From assembly GCF_002975435.1 (NCBI RefSeq), contig NZ_PCPT01000001.1, forward strand, positions 372,001 to 436,000: a DNA stretch of 64,000 nt, read 5' to 3'. Every line of letters begins with the position of its first letter. The first letter of the stretch is position 1. This document shows positions 8,818 to 23,594 of this stretch, piece after piece. This DNA is from Arthrobacter sp. MYb227. GTDB taxonomy: Bacteria > Actinomycetota > Actinomycetes > Actinomycetales > Micrococcaceae. A program made the translations under genes and the position numbers. Under the pieces are notes generated by a model that had not been told where the DNA came from, did no database searches, and saw only the letters and a program-made list of their open reading frames with translations.

Positions 8818-8844
8818 CTGTCGGCAGCGGCGCAGTTTCCGTTA
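8818..8844 (-). promoter_or_regulatory. Sigma-28 (FliA)-type promoter for flbD-motAB-fliM unit
   Basis: On the minus strand a TAAC box (8841-8844) is followed by exactly 15 nt and GCCGACAG (8818-8825). This has the arrangement of the enteric FliA promoter (TAAA, 15 nt, GCCGATAA) and is the same as three other elements in this cluster apart from variable positions in the second box. The expected start site would leave a leader of about 15 nt before the flbD ATG at 8794. Confidence 0.72.
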
Positions 8845-9002
8845 GCTGGTCGGCCCCAAGGATGCCAAGTCATCCCGGATCCACCAGGTGCTGGGCGGCC
8901 CGCCAGGCAAGAAATTTGGGCACGACCTAAATCCTTCGGATCATGAGCAGGAACGGTTGTACTTCAGCACTCGAGCACGATCGTCAAAAGATCCGACCTA
9001 CC

Positions 9003-9049
9003 GTGACCGGAACCCAGCACGGTTCTTTCTTGAGGTAGATTCCGGTCAC
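9003..9049 (-). terminator. Hairpin after flgE
   Basis: Perfect 10-nt inverted repeat, GTGACCGGAA at 9003-9012 and TTCCGGTCAC at 9040-9049, starting 12 nt beyond the flgE stop (minus strand). There is no U-tract. With a sigma-28-like promoter downstream of it, it probably marks the end of the flgB-to-flgE operon. The rest of 8845-9060 shows nothing recognisable. Confidence 0.5.
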
Positions 9050-9060
9050 AGTTTCGTTCG

Positions 9061-10233
9061 CTAGCGCTTCAGATTTGCAAGTTCCTGAAGTACTTCATCA
9101 CTGGTGGTAATGATGCGGGCGTTCGCTTGGAAGCCACGCTGGGCAACAATTAAGTTAGTGAATTCTTGGGAAAGGTCAACATTAGACATTTCCAGCATGC
9201 CCCCGGCAATGTTCCCCATACCGGGATCACCCGGGGCACCGAACTCGATACCTCCGGAGTTCGCGGTGACAGCATGGCCAGACCCGCCAGCCTTTTGCAG
9301 ACCGGCAGGATTCGCCACGGAACCCAAGATGATCTGTGCGATCGCTTGCTGGGCTCCATTGGAGAAGGTGCCGGTGAGGGTTCCATCCGAGCCAAGGGTG
9401 TATGACTCAAGAGTGCCCGCAGAGCGACCGTTCTGTTCGCTGATAGAGACAGTCTTCAGCCCCGCGTACCCGGTGATCTTGCCGAGGTCCACGGCAATAC
9501 CTCCGACGTTTAAGGTGCCGCCGTTGAGGGTTCCATCTGCTGCGAGTGTCAGGTTGGAACTTCCGGTTGCCCCCGCACCGTCATTTGCAGCAACGCTCCA
9601 ACCGCCGGCCGTACGGGTGAAGGTCATTGACAGGGTGCGGCTGGTGCCATCTGCTGCAAAAATTTCCTTGTCCTGAACAATTGACTCGCCCACAGCTGTT
9701 TCCTTGGGCAGGTTCCCGATCAGTGATGCGTTTGTCGTGGCGATTCCTGGTGCAACGAGGTCCTTGGGCAAGACAATATCTTGCAGGGCACCACCATTTG
9801 GCATGACACCGTTGTTTGCCATGCGACCTTGGACAATTCCACCGCTGGGGCTAGTCAGCCGACCCATGGCATCAAAGTCAAAGGCACCGGCACGCGTCAG
9901 GGTGGTGGATCCGCCGTTGCGGGTAATGAAGAATCCGTCGCCGGCGATCATCATGTCCGAGGATCGACCGGTGTTCTGCGCCGATCCTTGGCCGAAGTTA
10001 GTGCTGATACCAGCGACCTGCACACCCAACCCGACCTGTGCGGGATTGCGCCCTCCGGCATTGGCACCTGGAGTGGTCGCGCCCTGAGTCATTTGGGACA
10101 GCGTGTCTTGGAACTGGATAGATGAGGATTTGAAACCCGCGGTATTGACGTTGGCAATATTATTACCGGTGGTATCGAGCATTGTTTGGTGGGCGCGCAG
10201 GCCCGAGATTCCTGAATACAGTGAACGAAGCAT
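9061..10233 (-). CDS. flgE: Flagellar hook protein FlgE
   Basis: FlgE polymerises into the flexible hook outside the cell. The 390-residue protein has the rod/hook N-terminal helix signature GISGLRAHQTMLDTTGNNIANVNT split over residues 8-31, a central variable hook domain, and the C-terminal VDLSQEFTNLIVAQRGFQANARI helix that packs against the N-terminus. The GMLEMSNVDLSQ region is typical of FlgE. No other long rod or hook gene (flgF, flgG) is in the window. Upstream flgD is 77 nt away. Confidence 0.94.
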   Translation of the reverse strand: MLRSLYSGISGLRAHQTMLDTTGNNIANVNTAGFKSSSIQFQDTLSQMTQGATTPGANAGGRNPAQVGLGVQVAGISTNFGQGSAQNTGRSSDMMIAGDGFFITRNGGSTTLTRAGAFDFDAMGRLTSPSGGIVQGRMANNGVMPNGGALQDIVLPKDLVAPGIATTNASLIGNLPKETAVGESIVQDKEIFAADGTSRTLSMTFTRTAGGWSVAANDGAGATGSSNLTLAADGTLNGGTLNVGGIAVDLGKITGYAGLKTVSISEQNGRSAGTLESYTLGSDGTLTGTFSNGAQQAIAQIILGSVANPAGLQKAGGSGHAVTANSGGIEFGAPGDPGMGNIAGGMLEMSNVDLSQEFTNLIVAQRGFQANARIITTSDEVLQELANLKR

Positions 10234-10310
10234 GTGGCTGACTCTTTTCTACGGATACGTGGGCAAATGGTGTTGGCTGAAAATTTGGTGCGACAGATCA
10301 AGGACTCGGT

Positions 10311-10793
10311 TTAGAGCAGTGCTATTTCCGGCTCAGGCTCGGGATCCGGTGATTGATCACCGGTGTCTTCTGGAGGTGTTGCTTCCGGAGAAATAGCTCC
10401 GATAGACACGATGTGCGAGTAGGGAATCTGCTTACCATCGACCGTGACAATGGGATCAATGCCGGCGAAAGACACGGCCGTGACAACGCCGGTGACCGGG
10501 TCCTTCCCGCCGGAGGTGATTTGGTGGCCGAGCAAGGATGAGACAGCGGTTCGTTGCTGGATGGCCAGAGATACGTCTTGCGTGGCACTGAGCATGTTCA
10601 GCTTTTCCATGGAGGCTAACTGAGTGGTCTGCGCAATCATGTCGTTGGTGTCCATGGGTGAGCTCGGGTCTTGGTTCGCTAGTTGAGTGACCAACAGATG
10701 CATGAACATTTCCCCGTCCATTGCTTGTTTGGGGGCACGAACCGGCTGGTTTCCCAATCCAAATTGAGATACTTCGATGGGTGAAATTGTCAT
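10311..10793 (-). CDS. flgD: Hook cap / scaffolding protein FlgD
   Basis: FlgD forms the temporary cap needed for hook growth. The frame is open further upstream but the real start is the ATG at 10793, with AGGAAGG ahead of it; residues upstream of that lack family similarity and overlap fliK. The 160-residue product has the FlgD signature FMHLLVTQLANQDPSSPMD followed by FIAQ-like DMIAQTTQLASMEKLN, then a hydrophilic Pro/Glu tail. It is short compared with enteric FlgD (about 230 residues) and has only a reduced C-terminal domain. It lies between fliK and flgE, as in many Gram-positive clusters. Confidence 0.92.
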   Translation of the reverse strand: MTISPIEVSQFGLGNQPVRAPKQAMDGEMFMHLLVTQLANQDPSSPMDTNDMIAQTTQLASMEKLNMLSATQDVSLAIQQRTAVSSLLGHQITSGGKDPVTGVVTAVSFAGIDPIVTVDGKQIPYSHIVSIGAISPEATPPEDTGDQSPDPEPEPEIALL

Positions 10794-10809
10794 GGTGTGA
10801 GCTTCCTTC

Positions 10810-12399
10810 CTAGGCCAGCACGTCGAGGTGGGTGGAATTCGGTGCGGGTAAAACGAGGTCTGCAATAGGAAGGACAGCCGGTACATCACTGGGTTGCCGT
10901 TCCCTCGATACATGGGTGGGGAGTCCAGGACCGAAACGCTGACCATCCGCGGCGCTGGGGTTTCCACTTCCGGTTCCGAGATCAGTTGCCGTTCCGAGGC
11001 TGAGCGTTCCTGCACCAGTAGCTGCCAGATCACGGCGTAATTCTGGCAACAGGGCGCGCAAGGCCTCTCGCCCGGCCTCGGTAGGTGCGCTCAATTCGAC
11101 GCGTAGGCCTTCCTGCCCGAGGTAGGCCCTGACGGTTACCGGACCCAGCGAATCTGGGGCAACGTTGATGCTCAATGTCCTCTCCCCATGAGGACCCGTT
11201 GCCAAGGCCACCAGGGGACCTACAAGTTGCCGGTGCAGCGATACCGTCTGTGCGCCTCGGGCTACTGCGCTTTCCACGGCGAGCGCACTAACCCCGGATG
11301 TTGCTTCGAGACTCGCGGTGGTTGTCTCTGGTGCTTCGAGAACTATGGTTCCGGGCGAGACAAGCGCCGGTATCTGAGGTGAAAGGTGAACAGTGGATCC
11401 CTGCGGATGCATCGCGGCTGGTTGCGGGACATCGATCACCATCGGATCCTGCGGCGCTAGCGCCGTTGTCTGCGAGGTATCGACAACGGTTGTGTGCTGT
11501 TCCGTGGATGAAGTTCTCACCGGCATTGTCGCAAGGTTTGCAGGTACAGCGCTAGGACGGAAAAACTGGCTCGGAACCTCAACTGAAGGTTCGGCCAGCG
11601 CAAGATCCGGATGACCGATCAGGGCGGCTTGTGGCGGCAGCGAAGTGTTCTGGCTTGCTGCTCCAAGCACTGCCGTATTTACCGAAGCACCCGTGGGGAA
11701 AGCCGTCGCACTCGATGAGCTGTCTTCTACGCTGCTGGAAATTAGCCGAGGTTCCTCTGCCATTTGTTCAAGGGGGCGCTTCCCCACGACTTCCGGTTCA
11801 AGCTGCCCGGCTGAGCCGGACTCAGCTAGCAGTGTTGCTTCCATCAAGGGATGAGGCAACATCCCGGTTTGTGTCTGCGGACTGTTGGTTGCTACGCCGG
11901 CGTTTTCCTTTGGAGCGGCAGGGCCGGTTGTCGATGCTGGCAGTGTGCCTTGAGTTTCGGGCGTCGGTTGCTTGAGCGGCGTTGTCGATTCAAACAGTTC
12001 CCGGTGCGAAAGACTGGCTGCGTTTTCATCCGGTTGCCGTGGGGCGGAGACGTCCTCCGGTGCGGCGCTCGGGGAGCAAAGCGGTTCGCTTACGGCTTCC
12101 TCTTTGGCAGGGGGCAGCACGGCAGTGCTATCAGGAGTCTGTGCAGGAATCACGAACATGGCAGAGATCTTTGCTGTGGGGAGCAACTTTTCCGTGTCTG
12201 GGCTCACCGGAATCTCCTGCGTGTTCTCTTCAGCGAGGGAATGCTCCGATTCTAGGTACCCGGGCGGCTGCGAAGTTGGTGCGTCGGAAGGCAACATCGA
12301 GGAAACTATTGATCTAAATGCGTTTGATGATGAATCACCGCCGCGTGAGGGCAGGAATGTTCCCGGCGTTGGTTGGAGCGCTGAGAGGAATGGAATCAA
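10810..12399 (-). CDS. fliK: Flagellar hook-length control protein FliK
   Basis: FliK is exported during hook growth and its C-terminal domain triggers the substrate switch of FlhB. The 529-residue protein is mostly low-complexity Pro/Ser/Thr/Ala sequence, as usual for the ruler part. From about residue 390 it has a compact domain with GERTLSINVAPDSLGPVTV and LRVELSAPTEAGREALR, which matches the FliK C-terminal (Flg_hook) domain. It overlaps the NlpC/P60 gene by 4 nt and is followed by flgD after 16 nt. Confidence 0.9.
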   Translation of the reverse strand: MIPFLSALQPTPGTFLPSRGGDSSSNAFRSIVSSMLPSDAPTSQPPGYLESEHSLAEENTQEIPVSPDTEKLLPTAKISAMFVIPAQTPDSTAVLPPAKEEAVSEPLCSPSAAPEDVSAPRQPDENAASLSHRELFESTTPLKQPTPETQGTLPASTTGPAAPKENAGVATNSPQTQTGMLPHPLMEATLLAESGSAGQLEPEVVGKRPLEQMAEEPRLISSSVEDSSSSATAFPTGASVNTAVLGAASQNTSLPPQAALIGHPDLALAEPSVEVPSQFFRPSAVPANLATMPVRTSSTEQHTTVVDTSQTTALAPQDPMVIDVPQPAAMHPQGSTVHLSPQIPALVSPGTIVLEAPETTTASLEATSGVSALAVESAVARGAQTVSLHRQLVGPLVALATGPHGERTLSINVAPDSLGPVTVRAYLGQEGLRVELSAPTEAGREALRALLPELRRDLAATGAGTLSLGTATDLGTGSGNPSAADGQRFGPGLPTHVSRERQPSDVPAVLPIADLVLPAPNSTHLDVLA

Positions 12400-13238
12400 G
12401 GATTTTTCACCGCCGTATTGAATGTTGCACGTTGGGCCGATGCAGTAAGTTCCGCGGCTTTGACGCTGGCTTCGCGTATTAGAGTTTCCGTCGCTTCTTG
12501 AGACGAGGGGGGTTCCTGAGCGGGAACGATACGTCTAATCGTCATAATTTGGGCGTCGGTTTCAAAAAGTTTGCGGATGCTCACGCTTTCACCGGGACGT
12601 GGAGCATGAATCATTTTATTTTCACCCAGGTAGATGCCGATATGTGCCCCGCCACGGGTGACAATCAGGTCACCGGGCTTGGCTTGTGTCAGTGAAGGAA
12701 CCTCGGTTCCCTGCTTTGCTTGGTCGCGAGCCACACGCGGTAATTCCACGCCCAGATCGCGAAATGTGTGTTGGACAAATGATGAACAGTCGAGGCCAAT
12801 CTTCGGGTTGTTACCGCCCCATACGTAGGGAACACCCAGATATTTGCGAGCTTCTCGAACCACGTCGACACCCGAGCTGGGGCCATCGGCGACCTTTTTG
12901 ACAGCTTCGACTTCCGTAGTTGTTTTCTTGCTCGTAGGGTTCCCTGCAGGGGCAAGAGTTTCAGGTGCTGTGGGAATGGTCTTGGTTTCGTCCACACGGC
13001 TGGTTGCAGGTTCTAGGGCTTGTTGCAGAAGTTTGGTGAAATCAGTGGAGTTGGTGTCATTAAACGGCCCGGTTGGTATTCCCGAACCCGTGGTTGAAGC
13101 TAGGCCTCCGGGAGCCGAGTTCTCATTGAGGCTCTTCACCGGGGCGGGTGCCAAATATGCACTGGGTTTGGAGCCAGTCATCGTGGCAAGAGTTCCTTGG
13201 ATGGCGCCAATGCGCGAAGCAACTTCGTGGTAGCCCAC
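12396..13238 (-). CDS. NlpC/P60 peptidoglycan hydrolase inside the flagellar operon
   Basis: This 280-residue protein has an NlpC/P60 cysteine peptidase domain at about 122-237: VREARKYLGVPYVWGGNNP, the catalytic Cys151 in LDCSSF, His199 in AHIGIYLG and a third polar residue His211 in KMIHAP. Such enzymes cleave peptide stems of peptidoglycan. It has no Sec signal peptide; the first 110 residues are Ser/Thr/Pro-rich with a small helix (TDFTKLLQQALE), resembling flagellar export substrates. It overlaps fliJ and fliK, so it belongs to the operon. The likely role is to open the wall for the rod, the job of FlgJ in proteobacteria; that role is inference. Confidence 0.88.
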   Translation of the reverse strand: MGYHEVASRIGAIQGTLATMTGSKPSAYLAPAPVKSLNENSAPGGLASTTGSGIPTGPFNDTNSTDFTKLLQQALEPATSRVDETKTIPTAPETLAPAGNPTSKKTTTEVEAVKKVADGPSSGVDVVREARKYLGVPYVWGGNNPKIGLDCSSFVQHTFRDLGVELPRVARDQAKQGTEVPSLTQAKPGDLIVTRGGAHIGIYLGENKMIHAPRPGESVSIRKLFETDAQIMTIRRIVPAQEPPSSQEATETLIREASVKAAELTASAQRATFNTAVKNP

Positions 13239-13660
13239 TATGTGTCCCTTCCTCGGGAGCCGCTAGAGCTCAGATCATCAAGCAATGCCTGCTCACGGCC
13301 CAAGTCTTCAAGACGCAATTCACATGCATGTTTCTCGGCAAGTTTTTCAAGTGCCTTAACATCACTTCTGGCATGTTGGTGCAGTTGGAGTGCGTGCTGT
13401 GCCTTCTCATTGAGGGTTTGAACCAAGGCATTGAGTTCTACGAGCATTGAGCTAGTTGATGCTCTTGCCGCGGCAGCAGCGAGCATTGTTGCTGCATCGA
13501 CTGGATTCTGCTCCGTCTGAGCTGTATTTTCACGGACCTTACGCATGGTGGCTTGCCCACCGCGCAGGGCTTTGTTGGCCGCCGCCAGTTCGCCCGCGGC
13601 CTTATTTTCCTGCAATTCTCGTAAGCGCAGGAGTCCCGAAAGAGGAAAGTTCCTACCCAT
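13238..13660 (-). CDS. fliJ: Flagellar export chaperone FliJ
   Basis: FliJ is the coiled-coil stalk of the export ATPase complex. The 140-residue product is almost entirely predicted helix, with Ala, Glu, Gln and Arg heptad patterns throughout (LLRLRELQENKAAGELAAAN, then ALVQTLNEKAQHALQLHQ). Primary sequence is weakly conserved in this family. The call rests on the coiled-coil nature, length and position immediately after fliI, with which it shares the boundary base 13660. Confidence 0.85.
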   Translation of the reverse strand: MGRNFPLSGLLRLRELQENKAAGELAAANKALRGGQATMRKVRENTAQTEQNPVDAATMLAAAAARASTSSMLVELNALVQTLNEKAQHALQLHQHARSDVKALEKLAEKHACELRLEDLGREQALLDDLSSSGSRGRDT

Positions 13661-14979
13661 TAGTTCACTCCCAAAGTTTGTAGCAGGTTAGCCAATTCGC
13701 TCCACGCTTGTTCCCCGGGCACTGGCTCTTCCAGACGCTGACGCAAGAAATTATTGATTGCCTGTTCGTTATCAACCGCTGTGTCAACCAAGGGGTTACT
13801 GCCGCGTTGGTAGGCACCAACATCCAGCAGATCTTGCACCGAGCGGCGGGCCGCCATCACCCGACGCAGTGTTGCAGCTGCCTTAGCCTGCTCTCGGGTA
13901 GTGACCCTGTTGGCCACACGGGACACCGATGCAAGTGCATCAATAGACGGGAAATGCCCGGCGACCGCAAGTTTCCGATCCAGCACAATGTGCCCATCGA
14001 GTAGCGATCGAGTGGAATCGGCAATTGGCTCATTGTGGTCATCACCGTCAACGAGCACCGTATAGATCCCGGTGATTGAACCATGTGCGTCGCTTCCGGC
14101 ACGTTCCAATAGGCGGGCCAGCAACGAGAACGTTGATGGTGGGTATCCGCGAGTTGCCGGTGGTTCGCCCGCGGAAAGCCCAATTTCGCGTTGGGCCATG
14201 GCCACGCGGGTCAATGAATCCATCATCAACAGGACTTGCGCGCCAGATTCCCTGAAAGACTCCGCGATGCGAGTGGCAACAAAGGCTGCCCGCAGGCGCA
14301 TACGAGCGGGCTCATCCGCCGTGGACACAACGACAATGGAGCGTGCCAAGCCCTCGGGACCCAGGTCTTCTTCGAGGAACTCGCGAACTTCACGGCCGCG
14401 CTCCCCCACTAGGGCAATGACATTGATTTGGGCAGCGGAGCCGCGAGCAATCATCGATAGAAGCGAAGATTTACCAACCCCCGAGCCTGCGAATAGGCCG
14501 ATACGTTGGCCAGCGCCCACTGCGGTGAGCGTGTCCATCACTCGGACGCCCAAATGTAGGGATTCGGTGATGCGGGTGCGTTCCAGTGCGGCTGGCGTCG
14601 TATGCTCCATCGGAACTAGCTGTTGTTCCCCCAGCGGTCCCTTTCCATCAATGGGATTACCCAGACCATCGAGGACTCGTCCAAGTAGGCCGGGGCCGGT
14701 GGGGACTGACGCTGCGGATCCGCTGTTGAACACTAGATCACCGACGCTGATTTTTTCGATTTCACCCAGCGGCATGCAGTGCAGGGTGGAACGGCGGGCG
14801 GCTACAACCTCGGCGGATACCTTTTGCTCTCCTATTTCAAGAACTGTGCCCAAGGGTGCGTTGAGTCCAGAAATCTCTAGCCCCAGGCCCACCACAGAGG
14901 TGACGACGCCGAGACGAGCTGGGGCAGCCGCTGTCAGCGCGAGTTCAAGTTCCGGCCAGGCAAGCGTGTTCGAACGCAT
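13660..14979 (-). CDS. fliI: Flagellum-specific ATPase FliI
   Basis: FliI is the F1-beta-like ATPase that feeds substrates to the export gate. The 439-residue protein has an N-terminal beta-barrel domain, Walker A GSGVGKSS at 165-172, Walker B in VLLMMDSLTRVA, and the family sequence GEPPATRGYPPSTFSLLARLLERAG. The C-terminal helical domain ends in LANLLQTLGVN. Length is typical. It lies between fliH and fliJ with 1-nt overlaps on both sides. Confidence 0.97.
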   Translation of the reverse strand: MRSNTLAWPELELALTAAAPARLGVVTSVVGLGLEISGLNAPLGTVLEIGEQKVSAEVVAARRSTLHCMPLGEIEKISVGDLVFNSGSAASVPTGPGLLGRVLDGLGNPIDGKGPLGEQQLVPMEHTTPAALERTRITESLHLGVRVMDTLTAVGAGQRIGLFAGSGVGKSSLLSMIARGSAAQINVIALVGERGREVREFLEEDLGPEGLARSIVVVSTADEPARMRLRAAFVATRIAESFRESGAQVLLMMDSLTRVAMAQREIGLSAGEPPATRGYPPSTFSLLARLLERAGSDAHGSITGIYTVLVDGDDHNEPIADSTRSLLDGHIVLDRKLAVAGHFPSIDALASVSRVANRVTTREQAKAAATLRRVMAARRSVQDLLDVGAYQRGSNPLVDTAVDNEQAINNFLRQRLEEPVPGEQAWSELANLLQTLGVN

Positions 14980-15581
14980 TAGAGCCCACCCCGTAATGCC
15001 TTGGCTGCGCGTTCGAAGGCTGTCTTGATGCGTGCGTCCAAGAAGCCTTCGGCAAACGCCGTCATGGCATCCCCGCGCGCAAGCGATGAATCAGCAACCA
15101 ACGCAATATCCGTGCCGGGAACCTTGCTCAGTCCCAGCAGCGAGAGGTCTTCGTGGTTCATCCGAATTTCGCGCACGGTATGTGCCTCAATGCCAGCTAG
15201 TGCCCTATCGATCGCGGCCTTGGCGCCCAGAGACTCATTGGACAGTTCCTGACCAATGATCTTTTCGGCAAGGAGCAAGGCGGTTTCGGCCATGACCGAT
15301 GACGCCTGCTCAAGTACTGGAACGGTGCGCTGGGTTAGCGCGTCGGCGGCTGCCGCTAAGGCTCTAATAGCACGTGCTTGTTCAGCAGCGTGCTGTGCTT
15401 CGGCCGCTGCCTGAACTTGGGCAAGGTGCTCGCGTTGCCTGCGCGCAGCGGCTTCTGCTGCCCGCATACCCGTTGCATATCCTGCTGCGTAGCCATGGGT
15501 TTGCGATAAGGCACCTTGGCGCGCTGCCTCACCGGACACCTCTAGTTGGCCAAATACGGCAGGTTCAAATCCCCGTGGCAT
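14979..15581 (-). CDS. fliH: Flagellar assembly protein FliH
   Basis: FliH holds FliI inactive and tethers it to the C-ring. The 200-residue protein has a helical, Ala/Gln/Glu-rich central part (AAEAAARRQREHLAQVQAA) and a C-terminal domain with AETALLLAEKIIGQEL and LGAKAAIDRALAGI, typical of FliH/V-ATPase E-like stators. The ATG at 15581 is preferred because GGAGGG lies just upstream; the frame stays open to 15629 but that would overlap fliG. It lies between fliG and fliI. Confidence 0.9.
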   Translation of the reverse strand: MPRGFEPAVFGQLEVSGEAARQGALSQTHGYAAGYATGMRAAEAAARRQREHLAQVQAAAEAQHAAEQARAIRALAAAADALTQRTVPVLEQASSVMAETALLLAEKIIGQELSNESLGAKAAIDRALAGIEAHTVREIRMNHEDLSLLGLSKVPGTDIALVADSSLARGDAMTAFAEGFLDARIKTAFERAAKALRGGL

Positions 15582-15594
15582 AAGGCCCTCCGGT

Positions 15595-16626
15595 TCAGAG
15601 GACAAAGTCATCTTCGTCGCCACGCTCAATAGTTATTTCACCAGTGGTTTCCAATTCCCGAATGGATCGAACAATATCGGCACGGGCTTCCTCAACTTGG
15701 GACACACGCACCCGACCCATTGAAGCGATTTCCGCATCCAACACTTCTTTGGTGCGGTCGGAGATGTTCGCCCGAATGGTCGTCTCGACACCATCCCCGG
15801 CCCCCTTGAGTGCATAGGCCAGGATGGTGGGGTTGATACCACGGAGTACCCGCTGGACGTCTTTGCGTTCGAACTTCACGATGTCACTGAAGGAGAGCAT
15901 GCGGGAACGTACTTCCTCGGCAAGCAATGGATCACGCAGTTCAAGGGATTGCAGCACATCCTTCTCGATGGCCACATCCGACCTATTAAGGATTTCCACC
16001 AAGGGTTGGATACCACCGACGGCTTCCACTGGCTCACGCGGTGTGGTGATGTTTCCGGTGCGTTTCTTCAGTGCCTCGGCCACCACACGCACGGCCTCAG
16101 GTGCAGCCGATCCCATGGTCGCCAGCGCGCTTGCTACGTCGGTTCGAACACCTGATTCAAAGCTGGAAAGAACTGCCGATCCAATATCTGGGCGCAGGTG
16201 GGCAATGACTAGGGCAGCTGTCTGCGGCAGCTCCCCATCAAGCAGCGCAACAACTTGTGCGGCATCGGTACCTTCCAAGAACTCAAAGGTCATTCCAGCA
16301 AGTGATGAGGAGAGCCTGTCCATCACCGAATTGGCTTTGTCCGAACCAAATGATGCTTCCAGCAGCCCGGCGGCAATTTCCCGCCCACCGCGTGCGTTCA
16401 ATTGCCCGGAAGTTGCAAGCTCATGGACCTCGTGGATTGCATCTTGCACGGTTTGAGCATCAACTCGGCGCAGGCGCACCAGTTCTCCGGCAATCTCGTC
16501 CGCCTCGAATTCATTGAAGTGCCGTAGCACTTCCGCGGCGTGTTCCTTTTCCATTTGCATCAAGACAATGGCGACTTTTTGGGTTCCGCTCAACATCGCT
16601 GAACCACCCGGTCCGAGGGGCTTCAC
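15595..16626 (-). CDS. fliG: Flagellar motor switch protein FliG
   Basis: FliG is the rotor protein that receives torque from MotA and binds FliF. The 343-residue product has the N-terminal FliF-binding domain (GTQKVAIVLMQMEKEHAAEVL), the middle domain with GELPQTAALVIAHL in place of the EHPQ motif, and the C-terminal torque domain with LKGAGDGVETTIRANISDR. The charged torque-helix residues are present. It overlaps fliF by 4 nt. Confidence 0.96.
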   Translation of the reverse strand: MKPLGPGGSAMLSGTQKVAIVLMQMEKEHAAEVLRHFNEFEADEIAGELVRLRRVDAQTVQDAIHEVHELATSGQLNARGGREIAAGLLEASFGSDKANSVMDRLSSSLAGMTFEFLEGTDAAQVVALLDGELPQTAALVIAHLRPDIGSAVLSSFESGVRTDVASALATMGSAAPEAVRVVAEALKKRTGNITTPREPVEAVGGIQPLVEILNRSDVAIEKDVLQSLELRDPLLAEEVRSRMLSFSDIVKFERKDVQRVLRGINPTILAYALKGAGDGVETTIRANISDRTKEVLDAEIASMGRVRVSQVEEARADIVRSIRELETTGEITIERGDEDDFVL

Positions 16627-18221
16627 TCGTTCCTCTTATCATCCATAACGGTGCGCAAGTAGTCGGCCATGAGTGCTGGGTCGGTGGCGGCCAGGGCGGA
16701 GAGTTCCTCACGCTTGGCGTTGTGCGAGATGGGGAACGTCGCAACGGGTTGCGGTAACACCACGTTTGTCAGGGCCACCGTCTCCGGATGGGGGTTTTCC
16801 ATGGGCACCGGCACCGCAGACAGGGACGCGTAGTCGTGCAGTTCACCCAGGTCGATCGGCTCACGCTTCTGCTTGTTGCGGCGCACATACAAGGCGTATA
16901 CGACGGCAAGGATGAGCGCAAGCACGACGACACCGGCATAGATCAACTGGCGTTGCAAGGCCGCATTACGCAGTGCTGTCTCAGCTGCGGCGGCAGCCGC
17001 TAGCTCGCTTTGGGCCGCTGCCGCAGAATCTGTGTTGAAAGGAACCACCGAGATGCTGACTTGGTCGTTACGGGCAGCGCTGATCCCTGCTGCGTTGGAA
17101 ACCATTTCGGTTAGCTGCTCCATGTTTAGCTCCCGGGCCGCGCTTTCATTGACCGCCACCGAAACACTCTGGCGCTGCAATGTTCCGGATGGAATCATGC
17201 GGTTTTCGGTGACTTTGTTAATGGCGTTAGTGCGTTGATTGTCAGTTGAGGTGAAGGTCCCGTTGCCACTGGCATTCTCGGGCACAGCAATGTTGTCTGG
17301 GCCCAAGACACCCGCGGATGGAGCGCCGTTTCCTTCATAGCTTTCTTCCTTTTCGGATTCCGTCAGGGCAGGAGAACCCTCGGGATCGGTAAATGTTTCC
17401 TCGGTACGCTCGGCAGACTCTAGACTCATCTCCGCGGCCACGGCAACAGTTGAATTACCCGTTCCAACCACACGGTCAAGCATTCCCTGAACGGAGCTGG
17501 CAACTCGCGTCTCATAGTCGGAGGCTTGCTGGTCTGCTCCCCCGGTCATGCCCACCCCCGCGGCCGAGAGCAGGTTACCTGCCGCATCGACGAGCGATAC
17601 GTCTTCGGGCTTGAGTCCATCAACCGATGCCGAGGTCAGGTGGATCACGGACTGCACCTGATCGCGGGTGAGTGTTGAACCCGGCCTGGTCTCAACAAAA
17701 ATCGAGGCCGTCGGGTTGGTTTTGGACGCCACAAAAACTGTTTGTTCGGGGATGGCAAGTTTCACCGAGGCCAGCTTGACGCCATCCATTGACTGGATGG
17801 TGGCGGCAAGTTCTCCCTCCAGTGCGCGTTTGTAGGTGATGCTTTGCTGGAATTCGCTGGAGGTGACGCCCATTTGGTCCAGCAGCGAGTATCCGGCGGT
17901 TCCCGCGCTGGGAAGGCCTGCCGCCGCTGCCTTGAGTCTGGCGTCGTAGACGCTTGCTTCGGGAACCATGATGGTTCCACCACCGCCGGTCAATTCATAG
18001 GCGACGCCGTCGGTCTTGAGCTGTTCGACGATCCCAGCGGCATCTTCGGGGGCAAGCCCCGAGTACAGGGGTGTCATTTTGGGTTGGTTCAGAAACGTAG
18101 CAAGAGCGATCGCACCCATGACAAGGATGGCAACGCCGATGATCATGATGGTTCGCTGTGCCAAGCTGAACCCACGCACGGATTCCATCAGCTTGCCCAA
18201 GGGGGCAGGAACAGCGGCCAT
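16623..18221 (-). CDS. fliF: Flagellar MS-ring protein FliF
   Basis: FliF forms the MS-ring that founds the basal body in the membrane. The 532-residue protein has a first membrane helix near 25-45 (IMIIGVAILVMGAIALATFL), ring-building motifs with GTAGYSLLDQ and FQQSITYKRALEGELAATIQS, a second membrane helix near 438-458, and a C-terminal FliG-binding tail with PTHP-like SHNAKREELSALAATDPALMA. Length is typical. It overlaps fliG by 4 nt and fliE by 1 nt. Confidence 0.96.
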   Translation of the reverse strand: MAAVPAPLGKLMESVRGFSLAQRTIMIIGVAILVMGAIALATFLNQPKMTPLYSGLAPEDAAGIVEQLKTDGVAYELTGGGGTIMVPEASVYDARLKAAAAGLPSAGTAGYSLLDQMGVTSSEFQQSITYKRALEGELAATIQSMDGVKLASVKLAIPEQTVFVASKTNPTASIFVETRPGSTLTRDQVQSVIHLTSASVDGLKPEDVSLVDAAGNLLSAAGVGMTGGADQQASDYETRVASSVQGMLDRVVGTGNSTVAVAAEMSLESAERTEETFTDPEGSPALTESEKEESYEGNGAPSAGVLGPDNIAVPENASGNGTFTSTDNQRTNAINKVTENRMIPSGTLQRQSVSVAVNESAARELNMEQLTEMVSNAAGISAARNDQVSISVVPFNTDSAAAAQSELAAAAAAETALRNAALQRQLIYAGVVVLALILAVVYALYVRRNKQKREPIDLGELHDYASLSAVPVPMENPHPETVALTNVVLPQPVATFPISHNAKREELSALAATDPALMADYLRTVMDDKRNE

Positions 18222-18529
18222 CAGGCTTGCATCCGCATGATCTCATTGAATGCTTCAACCCCACGATTGCGGAATGTTGAAACCATTTCAAGTGCAACTG
18301 CCGCACGAGTTGAAGCAAGCGTCGCGGCATGAATGTCGGTCAGATCCCCGGTGACGGCCTTAATCGACAGGTCATTTGAGGTGCTTTGAAGGCTCTGCAC
18401 TTCGTTGATCGCGCCGCCCAGCGCATTGGCGAAGGCAGCACCCTCGGTTCCGGCCTTGGCAGGTGACTGAGCGAACCCGGTGGCTGTAGTGGGGCTGACA
18501 CCGGTGACTGGGGTAATGTTCATGGGCAT
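18221..18529 (-). CDS. fliE: Flagellar hook-basal body protein FliE
   Basis: FliE links the MS-ring to the proximal rod. The 102-residue protein ends with the family helix LASTRAAVALEMVSTFRNRGVEAFNEIMRM, given here only in part as the diagnostic region (residues ~70-100), and has FANALGGAINEVQSLQ before it. Order flgB-flgC-fliE-fliF is the canonical one. Confidence 0.94.
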   Translation of the reverse strand: MPMNITPVTGVSPTTATGFAQSPAKAGTEGAAFANALGGAINEVQSLQSTSNDLSIKAVTGDLTDIHAATLASTRAAVALEMVSTFRNRGVEAFNEIMRMQA

Positions 18530-18918
18530 TAGTTGCGTCCGATCTGCAGTGCAGCTTGGTAGGTTTCCTTGGCGCGGTCCACTACCGCGGCATTCACTTG
18601 GTAACCGCGCTGGGCCAGAATCAGTGCACCCATTTGCTCGGACATGTCGATGTCTGGGTAACGCACATTGCCCTCGGCATCGGCTAAGGGATGATCCGGT
18701 TCGTGAACGATCCGGCCATCGGCGTTGCCGAATTCGGTACCCGAAACGAATACTCCCTGATTGTTCCCGCTGGCTTGCGCCACGATGTAGCGGGCACGGA
18801 AGGCTTCTCCATCGGTGGAGGTCACTGTATTTGCATTTGCAAGGTTGTCCGAGATTGCATCAAGCCATTTTCGGTGGACTGTCAATGCTGTGCCGGCAAT
18901 GCCGATTGCGTCTGGCAT
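18529..18918 (-). CDS. flgC: Flagellar rod protein FlgC
   Basis: FlgC is a proximal rod subunit. The 129-residue protein has the rod N-terminal signature (LTVHRKWLDAISDNLANANT near residues 12-31) and the C-terminal helix (VDMSEQMGALILAQRGYQVN-like, here IDMSEQMGALILAQRGYQ). It shares single-base junctions with flgB and fliE, so the three rod genes are translated in tandem. Confidence 0.95.
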   Translation of the reverse strand: MPDAIGIAGTALTVHRKWLDAISDNLANANTVTSTDGEAFRARYIVAQASGNNQGVFVSGTEFGNADGRIVHEPDHPLADAEGNVRYPDIDMSEQMGALILAQRGYQVNAAVVDRAKETYQAALQIGRN

Positions 18919-19259
18919 TAGTTGCTCCTGAGTGCTGTGCGGATGCTGTTAAAGGGACCCGATGCAGCCTGTGTAGCGAATTGGAAGCGCAGCACTGTGT
19001 CAATGTTGGAGAGCGTCTCGGTGTCAAGATTGACGTTTGAGCCGTCGAGCCGGGTGGGCTCCAGCGAGGTAGAGGTGGTCGCTGCACTCTTGCCGTCACG
19101 GTTTGCCACGGACCGCGTCAACGCGGCTTCGAAATCTACGCGGCGGGCATGGTAGCCGGGGGTATTGACGTTTGCAATGTTATTGGCGATGGCACGCTGG
19201 CGCGAGGCCAACCCGTCTAGGGCACTTTCCAATGCCAATGACGTGACGGAATCGAACAC
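18918..19259 (-). CDS. flgB: Flagellar rod protein FlgB, first gene of the long basal-body operon
   Basis: FlgB is a proximal rod subunit. The protein begins at the GTG at 19259 (start VFDSVTSLALESALDGLASRQ) with TGGAG upstream; the frame is open to 19304 but the extra 15 residues are not family-like. At 113 residues it carries the signature RAIANNIANVNTPGYHARRVDF and a C-terminal segment that ends at LRSN. A sigma-28-like promoter lies 77 nt upstream. Confidence 0.92.
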   Translation of the reverse strand: MFDSVTSLALESALDGLASRQRAIANNIANVNTPGYHARRVDFEAALTRSVANRDGKSAATTSTSLEPTRLDGSNVNLDTETLSNIDTVLRFQFATQAASGPFNSIRTALRSN

Positions 19260-19335
19260 GAAACGAAGCTCCAGAATCGAAATGCGGCCCATCCTTGGGC
19301 ACAAAAATGGATGAGCAATCCATGCTCACCTCAGA

Positions 19336-19362
19336 CAATCGACCAACAATCCCTAGCCGTTA
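19336..19362 (-). promoter_or_regulatory. Sigma-28 (FliA)-type promoter for the flgB operon
   Basis: Minus-strand TAAC (19359-19362), 15 nt, then GTCGATTG (19336-19343). Same boxes and same spacing as the elements ahead of fliC, flgN and flbD. It lies in the short gap between the fliT-like gene and flgB, so the 13-gene basal-body operon would start here with a leader of roughly 70 nt. Confidence 0.72.
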
Positions 19363-19372
19363 GCTGTTTTCG

Positions 19373-19699
19373 CTAACCTTCCACATCTAAATAAAGAGAA
19401 GTAGGCGATTCATAACGGGGCACCGAATCAACAACCCGCAGTTGGCGCGCAGTCTCATCTCGGCGTTCGGTCAGCATTCGGGCTAATTCCTGCATTTGAC
19501 CGAAAACCGCTTGAGCACGATTTTTCAGGGTAGCGGGCATGAGACCAATATTCGCGGGTGCTGTCCACCCGGTGGGCAGCTCAAAGAGAACCTCATGGTC
19601 GGCCGTGAAGCGGCGCAGTCCTGCCATGTCCGCTTCCAGTGCTTCCAACACGGCAATCCAGGCTTGTTCCGTCGCTTCCGTGGTGGGTTCCCTATCCAA
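19373..19699 (-). CDS. Small FliT-like flagellar protein after fliS
   Basis: A 108-residue, mostly helical acidic protein (WIAVLEALEADMAGLRRFTA; later LARMLTERRDETARQLRVVD). It overlaps the end of fliS by 8 nt. The slot directly after fliD-fliS is that of FliT, the FliD chaperone, in many bacteria, and size and helicity fit. No convincing sequence motif was recognised, so the FliT call is positional. The ending YESPTSLYLDVEG resembles a short tail rather than a domain. Confidence 0.65.
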   Translation of the reverse strand: MDREPTTEATEQAWIAVLEALEADMAGLRRFTADHEVLFELPTGWTAPANIGLMPATLKNRAQAVFGQMQELARMLTERRDETARQLRVVDSVPRYESPTSLYLDVEG

Positions 19700-20105
19700 T
19701 TTGCATACCAGTGCTAAGTGAGGTTGCTACAAGCGGTGCTATCGCGGCTTCATGCCAGGCCTGCCGCAGCGGCTCCATGAGTCCTTTGACGTGGCTCGTC
19801 AGTACCGGGTCACGACGGATATTTGCGTTGATCAGTGTTTGGGTTGCATATGTGTAAAGGCCTTGCAGCCCGTGGGCGCCGTCCCAAGCCTCTGCGTTCA
19901 GGGACGAAGCAAGTTCCGCAATGATCTCCTGGGCGTGTACAAGGTTCTCGGACGCTGTTGCCCAGTCCGCTGAATGCTGGGCAGCTTCGGCTCGGCTCAG
20001 GTCAAGTACCAGCCGGTCATAAAGCATGATCAGCAGCCGAGCTGGACTAGCCGAAAGAATGGCTTCCCTGTTGAGCTGGGCACGTTTTTGGGCTGGATTC
20101 ATCAT
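19692..20105 (-). CDS. fliS: Flagellin chaperone FliS
   Basis: FliS binds the C-terminus of flagellin and keeps it unfolded until export. The 137-residue helical protein has the family motif ASPARLLIMLYDRLVLDLSRAE near residues 18-39 and LYTYATQTLINANIRRD further on. Length is typical. It shares the boundary base with fliD and overlaps the following small gene. Confidence 0.94.
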   Translation of the reverse strand: MMNPAQKRAQLNREAILSASPARLLIMLYDRLVLDLSRAEAAQHSADWATASENLVHAQEIIAELASSLNAEAWDGAHGLQGLYTYATQTLINANIRRDPVLTSHVKGLMEPLRQAWHEAAIAPLVATSLSTGMQIG

Positions 20106-21430
20106 CAGTTTTGTGCTCCAGCATTCAAGGAGGAAAGTTGTGAGGCCATGTATGACTGTTGGGAGTTGAGCTTGCTCAGCTGGACTTCCAAGGCCGAATA
20201 GGTTCGTTTAAGTGTTGCTTCGCGGGTTGCCAGTCGACGGTCCCAGTCAAGAATTTGCGTGTCCAGCCTGGACACCATGGATTCTTGGCCCTTGATACGC
20301 GAGGTAATTGCTCCGTCGTATTTATCAGACAACGTCGATGTCGTACCAGAGACTCGGGAGGAAACTGTTTGCAATGTCGCATCTATTCGAGCCGGATCCT
20401 CGGCAAGTACTTTCGCGAACTTTTCGGCATCGAATTCCAACTTGCCGTCTTTAGTGATCGAGATACCGACCTCGGAGGGAGATTTTCCATCAATCGGCGC
20501 AGTCACGGCTTCCATGACACGTTGTTTGACATCCCGAACAGTGCTGTCACCGGTGAAGATCATACCCGTCGTTGCGCCACCGGCCCCGCTGCTAACTGCC
20601 GAGTTGACCGCGATGAATTTGAAGAGGTCATTGAGCTTATCCACTAGATCTGAAGCGACCTTGGTGGATGCTTCAGTATCCCGGGCCACCGATACGGTAA
20701 CCGGTTCTGAAGAAACCTTGGACACTGTAATGTCCACGCCCGGCAGCAACGACGCGAAGGTATTAGTGGCGGAGGTGACTTTTTGTTCGGCCTCGGTGCC
20801 GGACCACAGTGTCAGCTCGGCATCTTGTGCCTGCCGTATGACTTTCAAATCCTCCGGCGTACTTCCGTCCGCCTTGGTAATCGTGAACCCGTTGGTGGCA
20901 CCGGTTTCTACCGAAGAGAATTGTACACGGAACGTTGTGCCATCCCCCGTGGCAACCTTGACGGCCTTGACTCCGGAATCTGAGGCATTGACGGCCTTGA
21001 TCACGTCGTCAAGCGAACTCGAGGAAGCGACTATGGACGTGGATTTGGTACCGTCTGCCGATTTGATGTCGAAGGTGGATCCCGGCCATTCAGTGAGGGC
21101 TTCCGAAACATGAATCTGGCCCTGGGCCAGTTTTGTGACGGTGACGTCCAAGGAGCCGGGGTTGGCCCCCGCACTGGCCGTGGCCTTGACACCATCGGAG
21201 CTGCTGGAGGTGCTGAAGAGCTGCAGTGACTCCGGCATAGCAAGTTTTTTGGTCAAGTCGGCCAGATCCGCGACCTTTGTATTTAGCGCTTGCAAAGCAC
21301 TAACCATGGTCTGCGTTGATTTGACCTTGTTCTTCAAGATGTTCTGCGGAATCGCTTCGACCTGCATCAGTGATTTGATCAGTTCAGTGGTGTTCAAGCC
21401 ACTGGATAGTCCGTCTAATGACAGGCCCAT
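20105..21430 (-). CDS. fliD: Flagellar filament cap protein FliD
   Basis: FliD caps the filament and promotes flagellin insertion. The 441-residue protein has the FliD N-terminal domain (GLSSGLNTTELIKSLMQVEA), the middle variable domain, and the C-terminal FliD domain with GISITKDGKLEFDAEKFAKVL and a helical end (SRLDTQILDWDRRLATREATL). GGAG lies upstream of the ATG. No promoter was recognised between fliC and fliD, so it may depend on read-through from fliC. Confidence 0.95.
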   Translation of the reverse strand: MGLSLDGLSSGLNTTELIKSLMQVEAIPQNILKNKVKSTQTMVSALQALNTKVADLADLTKKLAMPESLQLFSTSSSSDGVKATASAGANPGSLDVTVTKLAQGQIHVSEALTEWPGSTFDIKSADGTKSTSIVASSSSLDDVIKAVNASDSGVKAVKVATGDGTTFRVQFSSVETGATNGFTITKADGSTPEDLKVIRQAQDAELTLWSGTEAEQKVTSATNTFASLLPGVDITVSKVSSEPVTVSVARDTEASTKVASDLVDKLNDLFKFIAVNSAVSSGAGGATTGMIFTGDSTVRDVKQRVMEAVTAPIDGKSPSEVGISITKDGKLEFDAEKFAKVLAEDPARIDATLQTVSSRVSGTTSTLSDKYDGAITSRIKGQESMVSRLDTQILDWDRRLATREATLKRTYSALEVQLSKLNSQQSYMASQLSSLNAGAQN

Positions 21431-21466
21431 ACCGTCTCCGCTTCTTCAGTCTTGTATACATATTGC

Positions 21467-21520
21467 GAATCTCCCGTGGCATACGTGCACTTCGTGCACC
21501 GCGGATGCCACGGGAGATTC
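21467..21520 (-). terminator. Strong hairpin between fliC and fliD
   Basis: A perfect 16-nt inverted repeat, arms 21467-21482 and 21505-21520, with an inner GTGCAC/GTGCAC pair in the loop. It sits about 105 nt beyond the fliC stop and 37 nt before fliD. No U-tract follows. It may end most fliC transcripts while letting some pass into fliD. Confidence 0.6.
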
Positions 21521-21625
21521 ATGAGTCAAACTTCTTGTTTCCTCAATGGCCAGCTGCATAGCTAGCACCTGATGAGCGTTTCAAACTCTCATGCCGATCA
21601 AGGAACCGCCTTACTGCCTTGGGTT

Positions 21626-22489
21626 TTAGCGCAGCAAGGAAAGAACACCCTGAGTGGACTGGTTTGCCTGCGCGAGCATGGCGGTACCGGCCTGGGACAG
21701 GATGTTCTTGGCGGTGAACTTGACCATTTCGCCAGCCATGTCAACGTCGCGGATGCGGGACTCTGCAGCCGAGAGGTTTTCGCGCGAGACGTTCAGCGAG
21801 TTGATTGCCGACTCGAAGCGGTTCTGGCTTGCACCCAGTTCCGAGCGGCTCGAGGAGATAGCCGTAATGGCCGTGTCAATGGCGGTGATCGACGTGGCGG
21901 CCGCCGTGGCTGAAGTCAAATCGATGGCCAGTGTTGAGGTTCCGGCGGCGACGTCGGTGCCAGCTACTAGGGCCGTAACAGTCTTCACTGCGTCAGCCAG
22001 GTCGGTCAGGTTGACCGAGATCTGCGAGGACGGATCGCCGTTGGCGCCGACCTGGAAGCTCAGTGCAGCACCGTCCATCAGGTTGATGCCATTGAAGTTC
22101 GTGGTATCGGCGATGCGCGCCAGCTCGTCACCCAGGGCTGTTGCTTCGGTGGTGAGTGCCTTACGCGAATCATCGTTGTTCGAGTCACTGCCGGCCTGGA
22201 CAGCCAGGTCGCGAACGCGCTGCAGGATCGAGTGGACCTCGGTCAGGGCGCCTTCAGCGGTCTGGATGACCGAGATGCCGTCCTGGGCGTTGCGGGCTGC
22301 AACGCCAAGGCCGTTGGACTGCGCGCGCAGACCTTCTGAGATGGACAGGCCTGCTGCGTCATCGGCTGCACGGTTGATGCGCAAACCGGAGGAGAGCTTC
22401 TCCAGCGACTTGGACAGGTCGTTCTGCGTGTTGGAAAGGTTTCGGTGAGCGTTGAGCGCCGAAATGTTGGTGTTAATTTGCATACCCAT
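21626..22489 (-). CDS. fliC: Flagellin
   Basis: Flagellin is the filament subunit. The 287-residue protein has the conserved N-terminal D0/D1 region (MQINTNISALNAHRNL, then LEKLSSGLRINRAADDAAGL), a short central part with Ala/Thr-rich sequence, and the C-terminal D1/D0 region (AESRIRDVDMAGEMVKFTAK, then QANQSTQGVLSLLR). The variable domain is nearly absent, so this is a small flagellin. The start at 22489 is chosen because GGAGGA is 8 nt upstream; an internal ATG two codons on is possible. Codon use looks more GC-biased than in neighbouring flgK/flgL, as expected for an abundant protein. Confidence 0.97.
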   Translation of the reverse strand: MGMQINTNISALNAHRNLSNTQNDLSKSLEKLSSGLRINRAADDAAGLSISEGLRAQSNGLGVAARNAQDGISVIQTAEGALTEVHSILQRVRDLAVQAGSDSNNDDSRKALTTEATALGDELARIADTTNFNGINLMDGAALSFQVGANGDPSSQISVNLTDLADAVKTVTALVAGTDVAAGTSTLAIDLTSATAAATSITAIDTAITAISSSRSELGASQNRFESAINSLNVSRENLSAAESRIRDVDMAGEMVKFTAKNILSQAGTAMLAQANQSTQGVLSLLR

Positions 22490-22496
22490 GGTGAAT

Positions 22497-22542
22497 TCCT
22501 CCGTGAGACGGGTGTCTTAGACGAGGTCCATCCATGGACCTC
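22497..22542 (-). promoter_or_regulatory. fliC leader: GGA-loop hairpin plus GGA in the Shine-Dalgarno
   Basis: In the fliC transcript an 8-bp hairpin (22523-22542, GAGGTCCA/TGGACCTC) presents TGGA as its loop. About 20 nt downstream, the Shine-Dalgarno GGAGGA (22497-22502) contains a second GGA. CsrA proteins bind GGA in hairpin loops and near start sites, and the Bacillus hag leader has such a pair. The sequence shows the layout; binding is inference. Confidence 0.5.
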
Positions 22543-22550
22543 AAGACCAA

Positions 22551-22577
22551 CTATCGGCCGGCACCATGATCCGGTTA
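22551..22577 (-). promoter_or_regulatory. Sigma-28 (FliA)-type promoter of fliC
   Basis: Minus-strand TAAC (22574-22577), 15 nt, GCCGATAG (22551-22558): the best match in the window to the FliA consensus. Transcription would begin near 22542-22545, placing the GGA-loop hairpin at the very 5' end of the flagellin mRNA. Confidence 0.8.
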
Positions 22578-22611
22578 GCCATTCACAACAATAATTCTCG
22601 AGTGACTGTCG

Positions 22612-23430
22612 CTACATCGTCGCGGTAAGAGCTTCTCGAGAGCCCTCCGGCTTGGTGATACCACCGGCGGCAAGGTCATGAAACTCACCGAGATACTGTT
22701 CCCTGCGTTGTGTGGCTGCCCGAGTTAGCCTTTGTTCTAGCACCGGTTCGGCATCAACCAGATAGAGCGATTGCAGCCCTTCTTGCAGAAGTTTCATTGC
22801 AGCAGTTCGGCGCTGCGACACAGCCGAATGTGTAACTCTCATTTCGGCGGCCACGTCCTTAACCGTTAGGCCTTGGAAGTAAATTCGCTCAATCACTGAG
22901 CGTAGGTTCTCGGGCAGCGCTGCGACTGCTGCCCGAACAATCTGCACGTGTTCTGCTTCAAGTACTGTTTCTTCAGGCGTCAGGTTGCCGGAGCTGAGAT
23001 AGTCGTTCATCGCGTCATCGATCCCCACCACGGTGCGGGCGGAATCACTGAGTATTGACAACGTGGATTCTTGGTCGGTGCCCAAAGCGTCTGACAGCTC
23101 AGCCAGGGTTGGGGTACGTCCGATGGCTGCGGTCAGCGTTTCTTGTATGGTTCGCAGCTCGGTAATGCGTTTGCGGGCACCGCGCGGAGCCCAATCATTT
23201 GAACGCATATCGTCTGCGAAGGCGCCAATGATGCGGCGACGCGCATAAGCACCGAACGGGACACCTAGGTTCACATCAAAGGCCTCAGCCGCCGAAATCA
23301 GCGCGATCGCGCCAACCGAGGCAAGATCTTCTCGAGACAGATGAGTTGCCTTTGCACACATTTCGGCTGCGAGATAGCCGACAAGCGGCAAGTTCTCGAC
23401 AACTAAGCTGTTGCGTGCGTGCTGATCCAC
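22612..23430 (-). CDS. fliA: Flagellar sigma factor, sigma-28 (FliA/SigD) type
   Basis: A sigma-70 family factor of the FliA/SigD/WhiG type that would direct flagellar transcription. Region 2 is visible at the N-terminus (VENLPLVGYLAAEM, then EAFDVNLGVPFGAYARRRI and GAFADDMRSNDW), region 3 in the middle, and region 4 near the C-terminus (AALPENLRSVIERIYFQGLTVKDVA, HSAVSQRR). The GTG at 23430 is preferred because AAGGA lies 8 nt upstream; the frame is open to GTG at 23448. A tail of ~40 residues follows region 4. No FlgM anti-sigma gene is seen in the window. Confidence 0.92.
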   Translation of the reverse strand: MDQHARNSLVVENLPLVGYLAAEMCAKATHLSREDLASVGAIALISAAEAFDVNLGVPFGAYARRRIIGAFADDMRSNDWAPRGARKRITELRTIQETLTAAIGRTPTLAELSDALGTDQESTLSILSDSARTVVGIDDAMNDYLSSGNLTPEETVLEAEHVQIVRAAVAALPENLRSVIERIYFQGLTVKDVAAEMRVTHSAVSQRRTAAMKLLQEGLQSLYLVDAEPVLEQRLTRAATQRREQYLGEFHDLAAGGITKPEGSREALTATM

Positions 23431-23567
23431 TAGTTGGTTCCTTATCACTTAGAGAGAATGACTTGACCGGCTACCCATATGTTCCTGGCCACTCAGCTAT
23501 TTCTCCCCAAAGAATTCAAGCCACAAGAGATATTAGCTCCAAAATCTGATAGTGGTGGGAATCTAAC

Positions 23568-23594
23568 TAACGCGCGTCGCTTTGCAGTCGATAG
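23568..23594 (+). promoter_or_regulatory. Sigma-28 (FliA)-type promoter of flgN-flgK-flgL-fliW
   Basis: Plus-strand TAAC (23568-23571), 15 nt, GTCGATAG (23587-23594), about 60 nt upstream of the flgN ATG. It is the only one of the four sigma-28-like elements on the plus strand. The remainder of 23449-23653, between divergent fliA and flgN, shows no other clear site; the fliA promoter was not recognised. Confidence 0.75.

Follow-up and report, generated by a model that had tools for sequence, protein, structure and literature searches.

Sigma-28-type promoter boxes with a TAAC -35 element and candidate CsrA leader hairpins in the flagellar cluster of Arthrobacter sp. MYb227 and its relatives

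Results

Four promoter boxes in the flagellar cluster

The stretch analysed here, 64,000 nucleotides (nt) of Arthrobacter sp. MYb227 (contig NZ_PCPT01000001.1, positions 372,001 to 436,000; hereafter the window, whose own numbering we use), holds a flagellar gene cluster in which four boxes resemble the promoters read by the flagellar sigma factor FliA (sigma-28). Each box is a 27-mer with a TAAC -35 element and a 15-nt spacer. Three of them lie on the minus strand: before flbD (box at 8818..8844, gene at 8558-8794), which heads the flbD-motA-motB-fliM...flhB row; before flgB (19336..19362), which heads the row of rod, MS-ring, export ATPase and hook genes; and before fliC (22551..22577). The fourth, on the plus strand (23568..23594), precedes flgN-flgK-flgL-fliW, where fliW (Pfam FliW) occupies 26451..26825 on the plus strand. 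The cluster also includes fliA (22612..23448, minus strand), whose product is a sigma factor of the FliA/WhiG kind, with Pfam sigma-70 regions 2 and 4 and best PDB matches to FliA/sigma-28 and other alternative sigma chains. Its region 4.2 recognition helix, THSAVSQRR, is encoded at 22807..22833 on the minus strand.

The original prediction of TAAC, 15 nt and a -10 element before flbD, flgB, fliC and flgN was right in all its coordinates: the window has four exact matches where 0.03 are expected, and none of 100 dinucleotide shuffles gets to four. Across the whole genome (27 contigs, 4.31 Mb) there are six exact matches, four of which are the window boxes, and three matches to the backward pattern. 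The two others are found on contig C21, within an open reading frame (ORF) of 270 amino acids (L026 798-1610), and on contig C27, where the match overlaps an MFS gene at its 3' end and precedes an ORF with a bPH domain by 98 nt. Because they sit inside or overlap genes, we rejected them as regulon members beyond the cluster.

Conservation of the boxes in relatives

We searched 197 genomes of Micrococcaceae and called FliA-positive those with a FliA match at E < 1e-60, i.e., 63 genomes; two more (G102 and G133) add a divergent FliA match at about 1e-39. The motif TAAC-N15/16-GYCGAYAG has on average 3.40 copies per genome in the 63 FliA-positive genomes against 0.54 in the 132 FliA-negative ones (G102 and G133 excluded), and is present at least once in 63/63 of the former and 45/132 of the latter. 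Across 39 loci from relatives we again find TAAC-N15/16-GYCGA at flgN, fliC, flgB and flbD/motA, and near fliM in some genera. As judged from the genome sequences, the box pattern is family-wide in FliA-positive Micrococcaceae.

An extra TAAC box lies near or overlaps the estimated fliM start in loci L071, L082, L086, L092, L093, L096, L099 and L191; the count of boxes upstream of fliM is 0/9, and the exact position of the extra box with respect to the true start is thus uncertain.

The loci were then divided by the recognition helix of their FliA: 43 have a helix of the [TS]H[SA]A type (HxA loci), and 33, from the order's other families, carry another helix (xxR loci). In the HxA loci, T[AT]AC-N15/16-GYCGA precedes fliC in 39/43, flgB in 36/43 and flbD in 23/23, and is present in 41/43 of the divergent regions upstream of flgN (41/42 with corrected flgN starts). 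The same pattern is never found before the control genes fliF (0/43), fliI (0/42) and flgE (0/38); on the opposite strand it is absent from the fliC, flgB and flbD stretches and occurs twice in the flgN stretch. Most of the HxA loci that miss the box at fliC or flgB have a different first base in the -10 element. A variant pattern that allows this base finds a box in 38 (fliC), 38 (flgB), 39 (flgN) and none (fliA) of the 43 loci, with at most 0.45 in shuffles, and retrieves only 13/23 at flbD because it demands Y at position 6. In the 33 xxR loci, TCA-N16/17-GYCGA was found at fliC in 23, at flgB in 12 and at flgN in 20 (24/33 in the corrected-start count).

The -35 element and the FliA recognition helix

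The consensus of sigma-28 (FliA/SigD/WhiG) promoters is given as TAAA and GCCGATAA (PMC8325347), or as TAAAGTTT-n11-GCCGATAA (PMC2859248). The boxes share with these promoters the register, the spacing, positions 1 (T) and 3 (A) of the -35 element, and the GCCGAT core of the -10 element, and as in such systems a fliA gene lies in the cluster. They differ in the -35 element, for which this clade has T[A/T]AC and the order's other families mostly TCA[AG] (with GCCGAT kept in the same register), in a -10 element that ends in AG, and in a FliA helix with [TS]H[SA]A in the place of ESR. The original prediction of a classical sigma-28 regulon with a TAAC -35 element thus stands in part: conservation, the contrast between FliA-positive and FliA-negative genomes and the presence of fliA in the cluster support a regulon of the sigma-28 type, but "classical" is not fully fitting, since the -35 element is a variant of TAAA. 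TAAC is a trait of the clade and not of this genome alone, and many flgB promoters have TTAC.

The recognition helix reads [TS]H[SA]A[VI]SQ[QRM]R in the 43 HxA loci and [TS][EQR]SR[VIA]SQ[LMI][RK] in the 33 others, two classes that were drawn up after inspection of the data. The corresponding helices in PDB chains are ESRVSQLH (6pmi, FliA) and ESRVSQIH (6pfv, which we take to be WhiG). When fliC sites are anchored on GYCGAY alone, so that one locus may supply several (three from L113, two from L157), position 2 of the -35 element is C in 0/34 HxA sites and 23/27 xxR sites, and position 4 is C in 32/34 and 2/27, respectively. The other positions change little: T at position 1 in 32/34 and 22/27, A at position 3 in 32/34 and 24/27. 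The positions that differ between helix classes agree with mutant data for the Escherichia coli aer promoter, where changes at -35 positions 2 and 4 lead to an approximately ninefold reduction (PMC2859248, Table 1). The same paper argues that domain 4 of sigma-28 sits differently, and we make no claim from mapping helix residues onto -35 bases by way of sigma-70.

Hairpins in the leaders of fliC and flgB

The fliC and flgB leaders contain, between box and start codon, hairpins whose loop carries A[CU]GGA. In the window, all on the minus strand, the fliC leader has one hairpin, TGAGGTCC[ATGGAT]GGACCTCG (22522..22543), followed by a second ANGGA at the ribosome-binding site and start (CACGGAGGAATTCACCATG, 22487..22505), and the flgB leader has two: arms GGTGAGC and GCTCATC around the loop ATGGATT (19310..19330), then arms GCCC and GGGC around AAGGAT (19287..19300). 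The second ANGGA downstream of the fliC hairpin is present in 72/73 loci examined.

We counted such hairpins by a strict test (loop of 6-7 nt, at least 4 Watson-Crick pairs, at most 75 nt from the estimated start, dinucleotide shuffles as null) in the 76 loci that match both fliC and flgB, of 112 supplied (36 dropped); the 75-nt limit is approximate for flgB, whose starts were extrapolated from an over-long ORF. The hairpin is found at fliC in 67/76 loci and at flgB in 69/76, with 0.2 expected each, and in 0 or 1 locus at each of 20 other flagellar genes (flgN 0/75). The flgB leader has two of them in 69/76 loci, their loops mostly 21-28 nt apart (27 in the window), and in 42/69 the -10 box is followed by the first loop after 11 or 12 nt.

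To enter the alignments, a row needed at least 4 pairs beside the loop, and 7/64 fliC rows (alignment A2) and 8/66 flgB rows (A3) were excluded by hand as other or odd hairpins and near copies, while the flgB row of the window was re-cut. This selection makes pair counts lean toward structure, and the strict test with shuffles is cleaner. With rows thus preselected for pairing, the fliC alignment has 66 two-sided changed cells against 18.9 in shuffles, and 91.5% of it is paired, compared with 20-53% in slid versions. The covariance model R1, built on the two flgB hairpins, gives one strong match (E up to 1.6e-6) in 17/18 FliA-positive genomes (the miss being G030), although 12 of the 17 were found partly by construction; G015, G018, G031, G045 and G057 gave no rows to the model. 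G038 has an additional weak second match. None of 43 FliA-negative genomes has a match so strong, and 7 have weak ones (3e-4 to 0.01). Within the window, the best match is at 2.3e-8 for the flgB model (next match 0.22) and at 1.2e-4 for the fliC model (next 1.2). The minimum-energy folds of the two leaders include hairpin 1 of flgB and that of fliC, closed deeper into the loop by one A-U pair. A search of Rfam returned a single match, at E 0.19 and outside these features.

CsrA, FliW and FlgM

Stem-loops with ANGGA are published CsrA sites, and the flaA leader of Campylobacter jejuni has two, bound by CsrA (PMC4894983). A csrA gene scores over cut-off in 62 of the 197 family genomes, all within the 63 FliA-positive ones, the exception being G100 (the lists were compared by eye). 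In 40 further genomes with FliA matches, csrA is present in the 38 from the order's other families and not in G102 and G133, of the family itself. The fliC and flgB leader stretches of these two csrA-less flagellated genomes have no ANGGA hairpin, and no T[A/T]AC box was found before the flagellar genes found in them; they represent one genus with a divergent cluster and count as one comparison. Their loci (L184 and L185) have a divergent FliA, with helix SDATVSKEK, and, ahead of fliC, the -10-like string GCCGATAA. The cluster of this genus is perhaps foreign.

In MYb227, the flbD row extends left of the window to flhA (FHIPEP), an ORF of 363 amino acids without Pfam match, and csrA (C1:370286-370438), so that csrA would belong to the flbD row if this row is one operon. 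Among the titles and abstracts listed in our literature searches, which are no proof of absence, those on CsrA with flgB or with Actinobacteria showed no work on flgB leaders, and none reported a TAAC -35 element.

A profile search for FlgM gave no match over cut-off in the 197 family genomes and was positive in three control genomes; a FlgM-like match in G051 is below threshold and was rejected. That flagellated Actinobacteria lack FlgM has been published for genomes sequenced by 2008 and 2013 and for the later-branching classes (PMC2587704, PMC4255298, PMC10746217). In Actinobacteria, FlgM is not a required part of a sigma-28 regulon.

The fliA gene lacks the box. T[AT]AC-N15/16-GYCGA precedes it in 2/43 HxA loci (0/43 by the variant pattern), so that we rejected autoregulation, and a promoter of another kind probably drives it. 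The intergenic region between fliA and flgN (23449-23567) contains TTGGGGA repeats upstream of fliA, as do 17/43 loci, against at most 6 for any shuffled 7-mer. These repeats are a possible operator for a regulator of fliA.

Other features of the cluster

Gene names were taken from NCBIfam and Pfam, with flgB and its neighbours named via homology, gene order and by eye. The likely start of flgB is the GTG at 19259, rather than the TTG at 19304, and that of flgN the ATG at 23654. The nearest named relatives of the host FliA, at 72-75% identity, are those of Paeniglutamicibacter species and of Arthrobacter sp. C2 and AQ5-05, which places the host among the Micrococcaceae, in the group of Paeniglutamicibacter. 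Between fliK and fliJ, the basal-body row includes an NlpC/P60 peptidase gene (12396-13238) with homologous matches in many relatives, which perhaps encodes a wall-opening enzyme for the rod. Although the flagellar cluster is near complete, we found no match to methyl-accepting chemotaxis proteins (PF00015) in the host genome.

Discussion

The joint explanation that we consider probable is that the boxes are FliA promoters, that fliA acts as a single switch, and that the order of assembly is set post-transcriptionally through CsrA and FliW. Sigma-28 promoters start transcription about 7 nt after the box, and FliA-RNA polymerase would most likely do so after each of the four boxes, driving four units: flbD/motor/export, rod/MS-ring/hook, filament, and junction with FliW. 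Made from a promoter of another kind, FliA would be the single transcriptional switch, which the remaining flagellar rows would follow. Since FlgM was not found, assembly order is probably imposed post-transcriptionally. The likely agent is CsrA, which would attach to the ANGGA hairpins close to the 5' ends of the two messages, fliC and flgB, and restrain the translation of flagellin and rod; FliW would relieve CsrA once flagellin is exported from the cell. In this clade, T[A/T]AC stands as the -35 core where TAAA is classical, alongside a changed region 4.2 helix. The promoter part of the model is well supported by the conservation of the boxes, and a regulon of the sigma-28 type with a TAAC -35 element spanning rod, motor/export, filament and junction units has the support of the same comparisons; the transcription starts and the FliA dependence of the units are predicted from them. 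Motif, structure and co-occurrence point to CsrA as a candidate ligand of the hairpins, and the presumed direction of its control is taken from Bacillus subtilis and C. jejuni.

These elements have partial counterparts in known systems. In Actinoplanes missouriensis, the flagellar cluster is under control of the FliA family (Jang 2016, Hashiguchi 2020, via PMC8325347), so that in both cases actinobacterial flagellar genes would be under a FliA-type sigma factor; unlike here, A. missouriensis has three FliA factors and developmental control (PMC11064477). The fliC leader resembles those of B. subtilis hag and C. jejuni flaA in having an ANGGA stem-loop, a second ANGGA at the ribosome-binding site, and fliW and csrA in the genome. 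It is unlike these CsrA-FliW systems that the leader of the rod row (flgB) also has ANGGA hairpins, mostly as a tandem pair. The absence of FlgM from later actinobacterial classes and FliA-type control in Actinoplanes are already in print.

Several results weigh against this model. When the motif is loosened to TAAV-N14-16-GYCGAYWR, the genome shows no enrichment (36 matches against 73 in the backward control), and we rejected this form as a regulon finder; the signal is thus carried by the exact form and the position of the boxes. The backward pattern has 1.59 copies in FliA-positive and 1.42 in FliA-negative genomes, in the latter above the motif's 0.54, and is an imperfect null. The association between helix and -35 element amounts to one change on the FliA tree, computed with the helix columns removed, so that its small Fisher p-values are not independent evidence but reflect one natural experiment, and it has exceptions (L159, L140, L169 and L139). 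The flgB hairpins show little covariation, their stems being nearly invariant (21 cells changed on both sides, 10.1 in shuffles; 4 pairs, 2.6 in shuffles, with 48/500 shuffles as high), and sliding the alignment by -3 gives an equally high covariation score (0.121 against 0.111). In the window, neither leader has an unusual minimum free energy compared with shuffles (z -0.52 and -1.34), and in C. jejuni flgB mRNA is not enriched with CsrA (1.6x).

How do other explanations fare? That the four boxes are a chance resemblance has a negligible probability: the lack of enrichment of the loosened motif speaks for it, but it is refuted by conservation across genomes, the expectation of 0.03 in the window, the contrast between FliA-positive and FliA-negative genomes, and the shuffles. 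The boxes could instead be FliA promoters that only boost rod, motor and export rows also driven by a vegetative sigma factor, so that a class hierarchy survives. The fla/che operon of Bacillus subtilis is mostly driven by SigA, and in the order's other families the box is found at flgB in 12/33 loci and at fliC in 23/33, which suggests that not every rod row is under FliA control; we therefore do not extend the one-tier reading to those families. Within the clade, however, the flgB box is present in 36/43 loci (38/43 with the first-base variant) and FlgM is over cut-off in 0/197 genomes, so that this explanation is unlikely and a one-tier FliA regulon is likely on sequence grounds. The joint drop of flagellin, flgB, flbD and fliM in Arthrobacter sp. 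Helios under PEG (21, 11, 8 and 5 fold; PMC9608346) fits a one-tier regulon without proving it. The original prediction that there may be no class 2/class 3 hierarchy is accordingly plausible for transcription, given that fliA is a unit head without a box and that FlgM was not found, but an order may persist at translation, given the conserved CsrA-type hairpins in the rod and flagellin leaders.

The hairpins themselves could be 5' stabilisers or ribosome stand-by structures and not CsrA sites. They do lie near the predicted 5' end, with 11 or 12 nt between the -10 box and the first flgB loop in 42/69 loci, but ANGGA is constant in the loop while the stems vary, csrA co-occurs with FliA, the hairpins are missing in the two csrA-less flagellated relatives, and C. 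jejuni CsrA binds similar loops in the flaA leader (PMC4894983); we regard this explanation as improbable. A more substantial, if still minority, chance goes to the differences in -35 element and helix being unrelated drift that shares one branch by accident. There is only one change on the tree, and some units of loci with an SR helix have TAAC, TTAA or TTAT. Against this, the change sits in the helix expected to read the -35 element and touches two positions together while positions 1 and 3 are unchanged, and L137, a long branch within the same helix class, likewise has TAAC.

Beyond the model of FliA promoters with CsrA-dependent ordering, we tentatively propose, as an idea that falls somewhat short of being probable, that in flagellated members of the order the FlgM secretion checkpoint was replaced by an RNA checkpoint, in which CsrA, titrated by FliW and exported flagellin, would hold back flagellin and the rod row by way of dedicated ANGGA hairpins, that the flgB leader would be a new class of tandem CsrA element, and that one clade would have had its -35 code rewritten by few changes in the helix. 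Row selection and the weak flgB covariation slightly lower the chances of this proposal. If it is true, one sigma-28 tier would make the flagellar messages together and translation would order them. The promoter set, the natural variation of -35 element and helix, and the two leader elements turn these into questions that can be tested in soil bacteria.

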